DNA from: a virus
DNA: 27,088 nucleotides
Reading direction: 5' to 3' (one strand)
Virus record (IMG/VR): IMGVR_UViG_3300037558_000256
Span: 1 to 27,088 of that record
The notes beneath the pieces are model-generated. The model had not been told where the DNA came from. It searched no databases and was given only the letters and a program-made list of their open reading frames with translations. Positions 5,964-24,836 of this stretch are shown here, in pieces. How positions within the stretch are numbered: position 1 is the stretch's first letter; each line of letters begins with the position of its first letter. The position numbers and the translations under genes were made by a program.

Positions 5964-8900
5964 TAACTTATTATTTATATAAACAGCACCACTAACTGTT
6001 TCTAATTGTTCTGCTCCATCATAAAACAGTTTTATTGCACCACTTTGTGCAACTATTTGATTTTTGTTATTTGCTGCATTGTTTAAGACAAAAAGGTCTG
6101 TTCTTGGTCTTAAAGCAGTTGCATTAATAATTAAATCTCCTGTCCCTGCATCATCAATATAGCTATTAGAACCATCGTGATAAATCTGTAAATCATCACC
6201 TCCACCCAAAACTAGCTTGTTGTTATCTCCAAAATAAACATGGTCGTTAAAAGTTCCACCTGCATTGAATATTGCTCTACCTGCTGCTGACATATCAAGA
6301 GTAAGGGCTGTGACAGTAGAGCCATTATCATTTCCTTTGAACTGTATATCTACATCTTGTACAGCAGAATAAATTTGAAAATTTGTACTGTTATTTGTAA
6401 ATCTTCCTATTTCTGTTCCTGCATCTCTAAAAGAAATATCTCCACCATTAGCATCAAGGATGATATCTCCTTCAACATCTAATGTTAGGTCTCCACCATC
6501 AGATATTGTAGAGCCATTAATAGTTATATCGTCTACTGTAAGGGCAGTAAGCGTGCCTAGACTTGTAATATTTGTTTGTGCTGCTGTAGCAAGTGTTCCT
6601 GTTATGTTGCCTGATACATCTAAAGCACCATTAACATCTACTGTCGTGGCATTGATCTCTATCTCTGTATCGGCTACTAAGTCAAGAACTCCGTCTGCTG
6701 ATTGGTGTATGTAAGTGCCTGAATCGCCAAACTGTAATTGTCTTGAACTGTTTAAAAGAATACCTGTATCGGCAACGTGGGTAAGCGTTACATCTCCATC
6801 TTCCCCTAAGTGTACAACTGCTGCATCACTATCTAAGAAAAGATCGTCTTGTCCTGTTATGTCTCCTGTGACTTCTACGTTAGCTGCAAAGGTAGCGTTC
6901 TCACTACTGTCAAAGGTCATGACAACTGCATCTGCTGCCGATGTAATACCTACCGCAGTTTCCATCAAGTCTTTTACATCAGCTTTCTTGAGTGCGTTAT
7001 CAGTAGCATCAAAAATCATTACATGATCACCTGATACTGGTGTCACTTCTGTAAGGTTTGATATACCGCTTGCAGGGAAAGTGTTGATATTCGTTTGTGT
7101 GAATGTCATTACTTCAATAGCTGCACTATTGGCAGGTGCTGCATCAAAGGTTAGGGTAGTTCCTGATATAGCGTAGGTTGCCTTGTTCTGATAAACACCA
7201 TCTATATAAACCTGTGTATTGTTCTCGCTATCCGCAGATACCCCTAGAGTATAGGCTGTTGTGCTTCCGTTTCCTGTGTAGCTGTTTTGATGTACTCCTG
7301 TTCCTGCTACTGCTGCACTTACATGGTAGACAACTATCTTTCTTCCGTTAGGTGGTGCTGCATCTAAGGTAAGAGTAGTGCCATTAAGAACAAAATCATT
7401 AGGGTTCATGAAGACACCCTCTACAAAGACTAGGACGTTATCTTCTGAGTCAGGTGCTTTGCTTAAAGTAAATGCTGTGGTTGAACCATTGGCTGTATAA
7501 GTATTAACAGCAAAGGTAGATGTGCCACCTCCACCAATCTCGCCCCACGCATCTGTATATCCCTCAAACTTGCTAAGAGTTGTGTTGTATCTGAATAATC
7601 CTGCTGCCCCTGTCGGTCTTTGTCCAGTCGTACCTTTAGCAACTAAGATCGCATCTGTAACACTTCCTACGTCTAATCCTACGCTTGGAGAAGCCTGTTT
7701 GATACCTACCCTGTTATTGCTAGTGTCTACCTTAAATACGTTGGTATCTACCGCTAGATCGCCTGTAATGGCTAGTGAGGTTAGTGTACCTACGCTTGTT
7801 ACGTTTGCCTGTGCTGCAGTTGCCAAAGTTCCTGCTAACCCTGTTGCTGTTAGCAATCCAGTAGAAGGATTGTAGGTAAATCCTGTGTCAGTCTCTAAGC
7901 CTTGTGTTCCTGAAGCACCATCTACGAATACAGGGAATATGGTTTCGTCTGCGCTGTTGTTTGCAGTTATGGTGACAGTAGTTGCTAATGCTGCAGTACC
8001 AGTTGTGTCTTGATTTAATGTGCCAACTGTAAAGTCTAATGTGTTATCAGAATCGTCATAAGCTACAGTTATACCGCTTTCTGTGTTGGAACTTACCATT
8101 GCTCCAACTGTGTCAGATATAACTTCTGCTAATGTTACACCGCCTACTGTTATGGCATCTGCTTCTAGTGTTCCATCTATGTCTGCATCACCGCTTATGT
8201 CTAAGGTAGCACCATCAAGTTCACCGCTTATGGTGAGATTGCGTATGCCTGTGTAATCTTTATTGGAATCCAATATAACCGCTTTAGAGGCTATTGCAGT
8301 ACCGACTGCTGTACTACCTAAGTCAAGAGCGTTTAACTCTCCTACAACTGCTGTGATTCCGTCCAGTGCGTTTATTTCTGCTGCAGTAGCTGTGACTCCA
8401 TCAAGAATATTGAGTTCGGCTGCTGTAGATGTAATAGCAGTAGAGCCTAAAGTAATTTCAGAAGTGGTTAAAGCTGCTATAACTAGATTAGCTGCAGCGT
8501 AGCCAGTAGCACCTGTATTTACAGTTGTGCTAGGTACAGTCTGTGTGTCTACAAATAATCTAAATGTATTGTCGGTAGAAGCATCGTAAAAGATACCTGC
8601 GTATTTTGTTGTGGTTGACTCAACATATTTACCATAGAAACCAAAGTCAACTGAGTTGCCTGAGTTTGCATTGGAAAGACCTGTAAAGTTGTTGTCTGTT
8701 ACAACCGAACCTGTTTGTGTTGTTGTCCCTGATACAACAAGGTTTCCGCTTACTGTTAGATTGTTGCTTACTGTTACATCATTAGGTAGTCCAATAGTTA
8801 CTGTGTCCGTAGCACTTACTGCAACATCAACCTCATTGCTTGTACCTGCAACTGTGAGCGTATCACCGCCTGCTACTGTTTGTGTGTTAGAGCCATCAGA

Positions 8901-22328: not shown

Positions 22329-22667
22329 TTAGAATGGTAAATCATCGTCTAATTCTTTATAGAATCCTTTACCTTCAAACATCCTCTGTGCCATCTCCTT
22401 ACCATAGTTCTCAGGCAGCCCAAACTTTGCAAAGAAAGATTTCTCTGATCCAAACTTTGTATGTAGTTCTGCATGATGGTGTAGACATAAAGGAATTACG
22501 TTCTGATCTCCTGCTCGTAGACTCATGCCCCTTTCACCTGTGTAGGGTTTCAATAAATGGTGAGCCTGTACGACTCCTCTGCAAGAGTAGAACCCTGCTT
22601 GTTTAATCAAACAGGGTTGTTGCCTTACCCATGCAAGGTGTTCTTTGTCTACAAAGCGTTTAGCCAT
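22329..22667 (-). CDS. HNH-type nuclease (DUF968/Ref-like) with SSB-like C-terminal tip
   Basis: This 112-residue protein has an HNH core: VVQAHHLLKPYTGERGMSLR with His36-His37, then GDQNVIPLCLHHHAELHTKF with Asn56, His63-65 and His69. Cys19, Cys29 and Cys61 may bind zinc. The pattern matches small phage HNH proteins of the DUF968 / Ref group, which act in recombination or DNA processing. The C-terminus is KELDDDLPF, very like the SSB acidic tip. It is coupled to the preceding gene (TAATG), whose product also ends in a similar tip. Substrate and structure specificity are not visible in the sequence. Confidence 0.8.
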   Translation of the reverse strand: MAKRFVDKEHLAWVRQQPCLIKQAGFYSCRGVVQAHHLLKPYTGERGMSLRAGDQNVIPLCLHHHAELHTKFGSEKSFFAKFGLPENYGKEMAQRMFEGKGFYKELDDDLPF

Positions 22668-23080
22668 TAGAAGGGAACGTCAGACAGTTCTTCTTTCTTT
22701 TGCACATATTGACCCTGTTCTTCTTTAGGCTTGATGCTGATAGAAGTGTACTCTTGATTTTTCTTACTGATCTTTTTCCATCCACCCAGTTTAAATACTT
22801 GTCCTTCATTACCACCAGAACCACCAGTAGAAGGTATTGTTATTGCTCCACCGATATCAGGACTGTTCTCAGAGACCTTCTCATGTTGTTGATTGACGTG
22901 CAGTAACCCAAGAGACATCATGAATTCGTACTTAGGCTCGCCCCTGTCGTTATGTGACTCAATGATTGCTACATAATGTTTCTTGCCATCAAGAGTCAGA
23001 GTTCCTTTTCTCATGACACTAGAGTTACCATTCTCATGCCATAAGAATCCAGTCTTTTCGTTATCGTATTGTTGTTCCAT
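22667..23080 (-). CDS. Probable ssDNA-binding protein with SSB-like C-terminal tip
   Basis: This 137-residue protein has AGGAG six bases before the ATG. It contains a strand-rich N-terminal half (GFLWHENGNSSVMRKGTLTL, KHYVAIIESHNDRGEPKYEF), a Gly/Ser-rich loop (GGAITIPSTGGSGGNEG), then FKLGGWKKISKKNQEYTSIS. The tail ends in EELSDVPF, matching the SSB consensus of acidic residues followed by P-F. The region could adopt an OB-like fold, as in small phage DUF736-like proteins, but I cannot show that. Its position between the annealing protein and an HNH nuclease supports a recombination or replication role. The alternative is an uncharacterised adaptor that uses an SSB-type tip. Confidence 0.6.
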   Translation of the reverse strand: MEQQYDNEKTGFLWHENGNSSVMRKGTLTLDGKKHYVAIIESHNDRGEPKYEFMMSLGLLHVNQQHEKVSENSPDIGGAITIPSTGGSGGNEGQVFKLGGWKKISKKNQEYTSISIKPKEEQGQYVQKKEELSDVPF

Positions 23081-23089
23081 ATTTTTCTC

Positions 23090-23368
23090 CTAAAATAAGT
23101 CTTGTTGTCCTGTTTGGACATTCAGTTTATATTCATAACCTTTTCCTGCAAGTCTAGATCGTTTGTCTACGACCTCTCCATACTCTTTAAGGTTATACTT
23201 TTTTCTTTCCTCATAGTTTCTAAGTTTCCTTAGACCTGCTGATATTGTTGCTTCTCCATAGAACTTGTCAAAGGAGTTTGATATAAGGTCTTGCAATGCC
23301 CAGAATGTATACCACCCTCCGTCTTTCATAATTTCATAGAGGCAGTCTGTAAGTGTCATCTTCTTCAT
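23090..23368 (-). CDS. Winged-helix-like hypothetical protein
   Basis: This 92-residue protein has AGGAG seven bases before the ATG and overlaps the preceding stop by four bases (ATGA). Residues 1 to about 60 (MTLTDCLYEIMKDGGWYTFW, then ALQDLISNSFDKFYGEATIS, AGLRKLRNYEERKKYNLKEY) follow a helix-turn-helix-wing pattern seen in small DNA-binding or replication accessory proteins. A basic wing (VDKRSRLAGKGYEYKL) follows. No precise family. It lies inside the recombination operon. Confidence 0.6.
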   Translation of the reverse strand: MKKMTLTDCLYEIMKDGGWYTFWALQDLISNSFDKFYGEATISAGLRKLRNYEERKKYNLKEYGEVVDKRSRLAGKGYEYKLNVQTGQQDLF

Positions 23369-24051
23369 GCTGACTCTCCTAGTTCTATAAGTGCCTTGTA
23401 GCCTTCCTTAACTTGCTTGTCACTTGCAGGCACACTGTCATGGGCTTGGTCTATTTGCTCTTTATTCATCAGATACAAACCTTTAAATGACTTCTCTTCT
23501 TGCACACACTTTTGATACTCCACTCGCATCTGTACCAAGAAGTCACTTGCAGTCTTGCAGTTACTCTTGATGTTGCCATTGAGTTCTTTGATGCTGAATC
23601 CTGTTTCCGTTTCAGATTCAACTTCTACAACTTCTTGTGTAACTTGTGCCTCTGCTGCATCCTTAGCTGCATCTGGCAAATCTTCTCCTCTAAATATATA
23701 GTTTGCTAAACCAAACATAGCCAAACACTTAACCATACATCTCATTCTTGTGTCTGAGATTTGTCTGGTAGTAGGATTAGTAAGAGAATTATTACGATTG
23801 TCCATGCAAGGCAACCACATATATCTTTCTAAGTTTCCTATTCTTACTATGCAATGAGACATTACAGTACCATTGGCTTCGTAAGTTTCTGGCATAAATT
23901 CATAAGTTGCAAAACTATATTGCTCCTGCAGAATTTGCCAAGCATCAGTCCAAGACAGATAAGTAAAGTTACCTTTCTTATCGTGATGCTCACTAAGGTC
24001 TAAGGCATTTAAAGTTGCCCAAACTTCTTTGTATGTCAATTCAACATTCAT
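23365..24051 (-). CDS. Single-strand annealing protein, Sak3/DUF1071-like
   Basis: This 228-residue protein starts at MNVELTYKEVWATLNALDLS; the ATG at 24051 has GGAG seven bases upstream and overlaps the exonuclease stop (ATGA). Conserved features are KKGNFTYLSWTDAWQILQEQ, CIVRIGNLERYMWLPCMD, the asparagine-rich NRNNSLTNPTTRQISDTRMR and CMVKCLAMFGLANYIFRGED. The 'YLSWTDAW' and 'QISDTRMRCMVKCLAMFGL' segments are those of DUF1071 single-strand annealing proteins (Sak3). These anneal complementary single strands during phage recombination. The gene is directly downstream of its exonuclease partner, in a Red-like arrangement. The C-terminal third is charged and probably flexible. Confidence 0.85.
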   Translation of the reverse strand: MNVELTYKEVWATLNALDLSEHHDKKGNFTYLSWTDAWQILQEQYSFATYEFMPETYEANGTVMSHCIVRIGNLERYMWLPCMDNRNNSLTNPTTRQISDTRMRCMVKCLAMFGLANYIFRGEDLPDAAKDAAEAQVTQEVVEVESETETGFSIKELNGNIKSNCKTASDFLVQMRVEYQKCVQEEKSFKGLYLMNKEQIDQAHDSVPASDKQVKEGYKALIELGESA

Positions 24052-24836
24052 TTTATACTCCATATTTTACGTTCAATGATTTGTTCTATCTCGTAATCTG
24101 ACCAAGTCCAATCGGAAAAGTCAGGGTACATCACTGAAGTTATTTCATTTAAGTCGCCCAAAGACAAAAGGTTCTGCATTGCTATAACAGCTCCTTTTAC
24201 TTGTGACATATATATATCCACATCGTTGACTTCCATAGTAATCACTTCCTGTCTGGACTGATTGACTACAACATAGTCTACAAGTGGAACGTATCCGTCT
24301 AAGGCTGTGCTGTAAATGGACAGTTGCCTATTGACTGAATCTGGTATCTCAGAGGGTTTCTTGGCAGTAGTCTTTAGGTCTCTGACTATGCCTAACTCTG
24401 GGTAAGTGAAATCGCAGTAGCCGATAATTTTTACTGGCGACCACTCTGGTTGATATTCTATTTTCTGCTGATGATTAGCTTTGCCTAAGTTCTTGTAGTG
24501 AGGTATGGCAAGCTCAAGATATTTTGCTAAGTTCTGTTTCTCTTTGAGTTCTTTTGCTTCGTCTACCTCAAATGCTTTTTCTTTCTTGAGTTGCTTTATG
24601 GTCGTATCAAACTCTAGGACTGCCCTTTGTATTGACTCTGCAACTGGTAATGCATCTTTTTCTTGTCTACCTATTTCGTGATCTACCACTGTGCCTCTAA
24701 GCATTGCAGGATTTGTGTGTGATCTTATCTTATGCAGATAATTCAGAACCCACTTAGGAGTGTTGGATATAAACAAGCTGATGCTTGAGTTGGATAAATG
24801 TTCTATTCCAAAAGTGTCAAATGGATTGTTATTCAT
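24048..24836 (-). CDS. PD-(D/E)XK exonuclease (RecE/YqaJ-like role)
   Basis: This 262-residue protein has AAGGAG five bases before the ATG. Nuclease motifs are visible: LRGTVVDHEIGR with His53, IIGYCDFTYPELGIVRDLKT with Asp142, Asp153 and Lys155 as the D...D-x-K core, and NRQLSIYSTALDG with Gln171 and Tyr175, the QxxxY motif of RecB-like nucleases. It probably resects double-stranded ends to expose ssDNA for the Sak3-like annealing protein encoded next to it. There is no helicase or ATPase motif, so it fits the exonuclease VIII / PDDEXK_1 role rather than AddB. The start region is a shared divergent control region with the Cro-like gene. Confidence 0.85.
   Translation of the reverse strand: MNNNPFDTFGIEHLSNSSISLFISNTPKWVLNYLHKIRSHTNPAMLRGTVVDHEIGRQEKDALPVAESIQRAVLEFDTTIKQLKKEKAFEVDEAKELKEKQNLAKYLELAIPHYKNLGKANHQQKIEYQPEWSPVKIIGYCDFTYPELGIVRDLKTTAKKPSEIPDSVNRQLSIYSTALDGYVPLVDYVVVNQSRQEVITMEVNDVDIYMSQVKGAVIAMQNLLSLGDLNEITSVMYPDFSDWTWSDYEIEQIIERKIWSIK

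Follow-up and report, generated by a model that had tools for sequence, protein, structure and literature searches.

Results

Adjacent genes of a phage recombination module encode proteins with SSB-like C-terminal tips

The stretch of DNA analyzed here (the window; 27,088 nucleotides) is a 27-kb virus contig whose relatives are mostly marine, uncultivated phages and whose terminase shows at most ~50% identity to named phages among the matches listed. On its minus strand, the genes for an SSB-like protein (SSBL) and a small HNH protein share one base within the sequence TAATG (Table 1). The C-terminal tips of SSB proteins are textbook docking tags, which bacterial SSBs use to recruit repair enzymes. 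An earlier note on this DNA had pointed out acidic tips of this kind on both neighbors, and both are present: SSBL ends in EELSDVPF and the HNH protein in KELDDDLPF. Upstream of SSBL lie genes for a 92-aa protein, the annealing protein Sak, a PD-(D/E)XK nuclease and a replication-initiation O-like protein, and the exonuclease/Sak/SSBL/HNH set constitutes a phage recombination/replication module. Across related loci in which a DUF968-type HNH protein bears the tip, the order of the HNH gene with the Sak, exonuclease and SSBL genes is conserved, the 92-aa protein gene being present in 43 of 46 and the exonuclease-like gene in 42 of 46, and in most loci the HNH gene overlaps that of SSBL or lies directly next to it.

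Table 1. Coordinates of the module features in the window and the basis for each assignment
Feature	Position	Strand	Basis
HNH nuclease, 112 aa, DUF968 (PF06147)	22329..22667	-	Pfam, motif, AF2
HNH SSB-C-terminal-like tip KELDDDLPF, disordered	22332..22358	-	homologue ends, codons, entropy, pLDDT
SSBL, 137 aa, all-beta core and disordered tail	22667..23080	-	PHROG matches of family, AF2
SSBL C-terminal tip EELSDVPF	22670..22693	-	homologue ends
92-aa module protein, ends GQQDLF	23090..23368	-	sequence
Sak single-strand annealing protein, candidate partner	23365..24063	-	PF06378 E=2e-32; phrog_659 E=1.9e-34
PD-(D/E)XK exonuclease-like protein, same module	24048..24836	-	PF12705 E=1.2e-6

The end of the 92-aa protein resembles a beta-clamp-binding motif, not an SSB tip; it reads QQDLF or QQHALF in near relatives and is lost further out, and AQLDLF forms the tail of another ORF in loci L078-L081 and L093. 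We considered whether a clamp motif stands in place of the SSB tip and rejected this, since QQDLF is on a different gene and only close relatives keep it.

The HNH protein matches only the nuclease part of DUF968

The HNH protein matches DUF968 (PF06147) at 38.4 bits against a cut-off of 27.8 (E=1.6e-9), and the match covers only the HNH part, positions 85-154 of the 171 in the profile. DUF968 proteins have been characterized as fusions of HNH to an Orf-type recombination domain (PMC4118853), a domain that binds the C-terminus of SSB in YbcN, a member of the Orf family. No N-terminal Orf/NinB-like domain is found in the 112-aa window protein, whether through loss or because it never possessed one; lambdoid DUF968 members are 305-338 aa long. 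Residues H36, H37, C61, H64, H65 and H69 are invariant in 39 sequences, conservation does not extend to the second Cys of the first zinc pair, and the motif C61-x-x-H64-H65-x-x-x-H69 has the spacing of C181/H184/H185/H189 in the phage nickase Gp16. The HNH core was modeled with a pLDDT of about 90 (AF2); all matches of the model to solved structures were weak (E>0.5) and were led by HNH-type proteins, among them ScoMcrA and 3g27. The window protein has no match to PF16786, the P1 Ref (RecA_dep_nuc) family, at E<=1, and one DUF968 relative (L087) has a sub-cut-off match (E=1.4e-4).

The nuclease tip is a conserved, exposed SSB-type peptide

The end of the HNH protein, DDDLPF, has the canonical SSB-Ct form: a disordered tail whose free C-terminus consists of acids followed by hydrophobic-Pro-Phe. 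In a search of viral contigs, all 69 distinct homologues first fetched (45-96% identity) terminate in LPF, preceded mainly by Asp, Glu or Asn. This count is skewed to near relatives because the set was drawn from the best 80 of 240 matches. The tip is likewise invariant in 46 of 46 non-redundant members of the clade to which the window protein belongs. The LPF residues are encoded by five different Leu, four Pro and two Phe codons in the HNH genes, which places the selection at the level of the peptide. Weighted column entropy is 0 at L, P and F and 1.2-1.4 bits at the three acidic positions, versus a mean of 2.5 bits over the ten positions of the hypervariable linker that precedes the tip and 1.32 bits over the protein. 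The check suggested in the earlier note, whether homologues keep the tip better than the remainder of the protein, thus comes out positive for the nuclease, whose tip is conserved above nearly every other part. In the AF2 model the tip is without secondary structure at a pLDDT of 57-59. The HNH tip is a conserved exposed SSB-type peptide, and the claim of an SSB-type motif on a nuclease is strong.

We also asked how often such ends occur elsewhere in these genomes. PF terminates just one of the 1,119 distinct tails of the remaining ORFs in the 138 loci collected, so the pair of tips is more than chance. The sole case is another HNH nuclease, of the P1-Ref type, to which we return below.

SSBL is likely to bind single-stranded DNA and has a less constant tip

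Members of the SSBL family match two PHROG families named single strand DNA binding protein, phrog_18154 (36 of 46 members) and phrog_7364 (34 of 46), and the window copy itself gives a weak PHROG match (E=7.4e-5). The AF2 model has seven strands and is all-beta, with a tail (residues 122-135) at a pLDDT under 50. Its matches to the PDB are weak and mixed, and a distant BFVD match is to Single stranded DNA-binding protein [Vibrio phage JSF9] (E=4.6e-3, TM 0.39). Judged by these family matches, SSBL likely binds ssDNA. No SSBL was found in the named phages searched.

The window SSBL tip, SDVPF, has the hydrophobic-PF part and is weakly acidic, with a net acid of 1 in the last six residues. In the first-fetched set, 69 of 69 SSBL ends have the terminal F and 64 of 69 end in PF; with 74 sequences the terminal F is present in 74 and P in 68 (six lack PF). 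By the same check SSBL comes out half positive: its terminal Phe is invariant and its Pro almost invariant, but the acids vary and are poorly conserved, Lys being the commonest residue at -4 (n=74). Many SSBL tips are basic at this position (KKIPF, AKVPF, EKAPF; for example in L012, L039, L107 and L113), unlike canonical SSB tips, and may fit another pocket, such as that of a co-evolved Sak. We rejected the idea that Lys at -4 is explained by a ribosome-binding site that serves the HNH gene overlapping SSBL, since Lys is also found where the two genes are separated.

Over 44 paired loci the mean net acidity was 2.25 for the HNH tip versus 0.59 for the SSBL tip, and the HNH tip was the more acidic in 29 of the 44 pairs and the less acidic in five, the pairs coming from related phages. 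The idea that the two tips act as a linked pair found no support across loci: with a canonical-tip definition the tip states of nuclease and SSBL are independent (Fisher p=1.0 for DUF968 and p=0.11 for Ref-type loci). An apparent compensation between the two in a first look at Ref-type loci (p=0.036) faded when more loci were included (p=0.15), and compensation was rejected under the canonical-tip definition as well. Of the two, the HNH tip is the more constant, a difference left unexplained by a simple shared-partner model.

A second HNH family carries the tip, and some relatives of both families lack it

The exceptional PF end noted above, in locus L104, belongs to a member of the P1-Ref family of HNH proteins (PF16786, E=9e-19) encoded downstream of SSBL in a locus without a DUF968 HNH gene. 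In a sample of 80 Ref-type loci, tips such as YDDLPF, FDNIPF, ADTLPF, SETLPF and LDDCPF were found, and a PF tip is present on 17 of 60 non-redundant Ref-type HNH proteins. SSBL adjoins the Ref gene for 14 of the 17 tip-bearing proteins versus 12 of the 43 tipless ones (Fisher p=0.0003, with related genomes counted as independent). The distribution of the Ref tip needs six changes on the tree, which has few columns and many unresolved forks, so that fewer gains are possible. The tree places the DUF968 and Ref forms apart (100*), and the majority of Ref proteins and of outer DUF968 members are tipless, which makes two or more origins of the tip the simplest account; the tip probably arose at least twice.

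A search seeded with an outlying member revealed DUF968 relatives without the tip: 15 of 68 non-redundant proteins lack it, in neighboring lineages and in many cases beside SSBL. We therefore rejected the possibility that the tip is universal in DUF968, as it is also missing from the members examined in lambdoid, Azospirillum Cd and Planktothrix phages. Given these tipless DUF968 proteins, those of the named phages examined and most Ref proteins, a DUF968 or Ref nuclease can do without the tip. Three tip-bearing DUF968 HNH proteins lie among tipless relatives (L385, L011 and L358, with the ends DTDIPF, DDGLPF and TDDLPF); judging from their placement, these may represent separate gains or losses.

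No tip was found in the named phages searched, where the HNH and Ref alignments, among the matches listed, stop before the tip, and no relatives in bacterial genomes were found in the scan.

In the loci read, the DUF968 HNH protein never occurs together with the Ref form or with a coiled protein ending GFEEWRTK...KRYGA. This ~117-aa, helical-looking protein usually accompanies a Ref-type HNH protein beside SSBL (L103, L104, L110, L112, L119, L121, L125 and the Ref loci L271-L323) and has no PHROG match. In Pelagibacter phage Baldr, a similar protein adjoins a Ref-type HNH protein.

Comparison with known systems

The tip, the nuclease families and the module are each known. An SSB-like tip on a phage nuclease, seen here in one clade and a second family, was not found in the named phages searched, nor in the open literature searched, where an absence carries little weight. 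The E. coli SSB tip, DDDIPF, is similar in its acids, hydrophobic-Pro-Phe and free C-terminus, though it may not be the tip of the host, and it is found on an ssDNA-binding protein, whereas the window tip is on an HNH protein.

Among nucleases, Gp16 of the S. aureus phage PhiNM1 is a RecA-interacting nickase with a NinB/Orf-like domain and an HNH domain (PMC12817073). Gp16 and the window protein have the same C-x-x-H-H-x-x-x-H spacing, and Gp16 is an early phage nuclease tied to recombination. The N-terminal NinB/Orf-like domain is absent from the window protein, which instead has the SSB-like C-terminal tip, a feature that the available text of PMC12817073 does not describe for Gp16. P1 Ref, which cuts at RecA-made D-loops (PMC4330346), is of the same broad kind of phage HNH nuclease, and in related phages a Ref-type protein lies next to SSBL where the window has its DUF968 protein. 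Ref differs in that the window protein belongs to DUF968 and does not match PF16786, and in working with RecA via a basic, unstructured N-terminal segment; no SSB tip is reported for P1 Ref in PMC4330346, where SSB is not mentioned.

A further parallel comes from phage HK620, in which the SSB tail NDYPPF is needed for binding of the phage annealase Sak4 (PMC5928155). As in the window, this is a phage recombination module, and an SSB-type tail recruits the phage annealase; in HK620 the tail is on the SSB, whereas in the window a nuclease carries a tail as well.

The tip may tether the nuclease to proteins that read SSB

We favor, with some reservation, a model in which the HNH tip acts as an SSB-Ct mimic, tethering a RecA/recombination-type HNH nickase to proteins with an SSB-tip pocket, Sak and/or those of the host. 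The HNH protein would be a small nickase-type nuclease of the DUF968/Ref superfamily acting in the phage recombination module, with a disordered linker that would present an SSB-C-terminal peptide of acids, L-P-F and free carboxylate. Known pockets take the terminal Phe and the carboxylate of DDDIPF and have a basic rim for the acids (PMC5872125). By docking into such a pocket on a protein that normally reads SSB, the tip could place the nuclease on SSB-coated recombination or replication intermediates. What we infer in this scheme is that the tip docks, on which protein it does so, that the enzyme nicks and to what end, recruitment hub versus competition.

The likeliest partners would be the Sak annealase of the phage itself and/or host RecO, PriA, exonuclease I or DnaG. 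By analogy with HK620, whose SSB tail is needed to bind its own annealase (PMC5928155), the phage-internal partner Sak is no less likely than the host SSB partners. The C-terminal domain of lambda Red-beta is known to bind host SSB (PMC8303780). More tentatively, phages may repeatedly have made two HNH families, DUF968 and Ref, into SSB-tail mimics, so that enzymes that read SSB would hand over intermediates for cutting.

Other roles for the tip appear less probable. The HNH tip, with or without that of SSBL, could be a decoy that fills host SSB-tip pockets, displaces host SSB and blocks repair or restart without the nuclease being delivered. The HNH tip is indeed more canonical and more acidic than the SSBL tip over the 44 paired loci (2.25 and 0.59), as expected for mimicry of a host peptide, but it is fixed to a nuclease with conserved catalytic His and Cys residues and in conserved order with the recombination module, and a decoy needs no active HNH core; we consider this role unlikely. 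Similarly improbable is binding to another phage protein or within the nuclease itself, in which the tip would occupy an OB-type groove of SSBL or the DNA-binding face of the nuclease as an acidic DNA mimic, keeping the nuclease off until ssDNA is met. The overlap or adjacency of the SSBL and HNH genes in most loci would suit such an arrangement, as would T7 gp2.5, whose tail and ssDNA are reported, in work cited by PMC5686142, to compete for one surface. However, autoinhibition needs acidity alone, yet the invariant part is the L-P-F end rather than the acids, and the tip is modeled at low confidence without secondary structure. A part for the LPF end in folding or stability, or its mere retention through common descent, in either case without an SSB-like function, is very hard to credit. 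Although single inheritance could explain the clade of the window protein (46 of 46), the tip is disordered in AF2 behind a hypervariable linker, relatives with the same core are tipless and Ref-type HNH proteins also carry it.

If tethering through an SSB-Ct mimic is correct, the SSB interaction network would gain a new direction: effectors would imitate the tail of the hub rather than bind to it. Such tethering would also provide a concrete handle on substrate finding by the DUF968 and Ref HNH nucleases, enzymes with a poorly understood part in phage recombination.

Other viral proteins end in the same motif

We also searched viral contigs for DDD-[ILM]-PF-stop in a single codon version, whatever the type of protein, which gave at least 120 stretches. 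The matches listed include 118 ORFs of at least 60 aa, of which 52 form one SSB cluster, while the rest, classed by eye, are mostly other beta-rich ssDNA-binding-like proteins with a few oddities. Among these ssDNA-binding-like proteins fourteen SSBL relatives were recognized by HMM, and the DUF968-type HNH model matched none of the ORFs listed. One recurrent family, of 76-80 aa, ends in DDDIPF and is not SSB-looking (for example LKKHYPTDDDIPF; L147, L157, L160, L179, L203, L217 and L248), a possible small tip-only mimic. In L224, a 537-aa protein of primase/helicase-like appearance, with the match at 6061-6081, ends in EKEDDDIPF.
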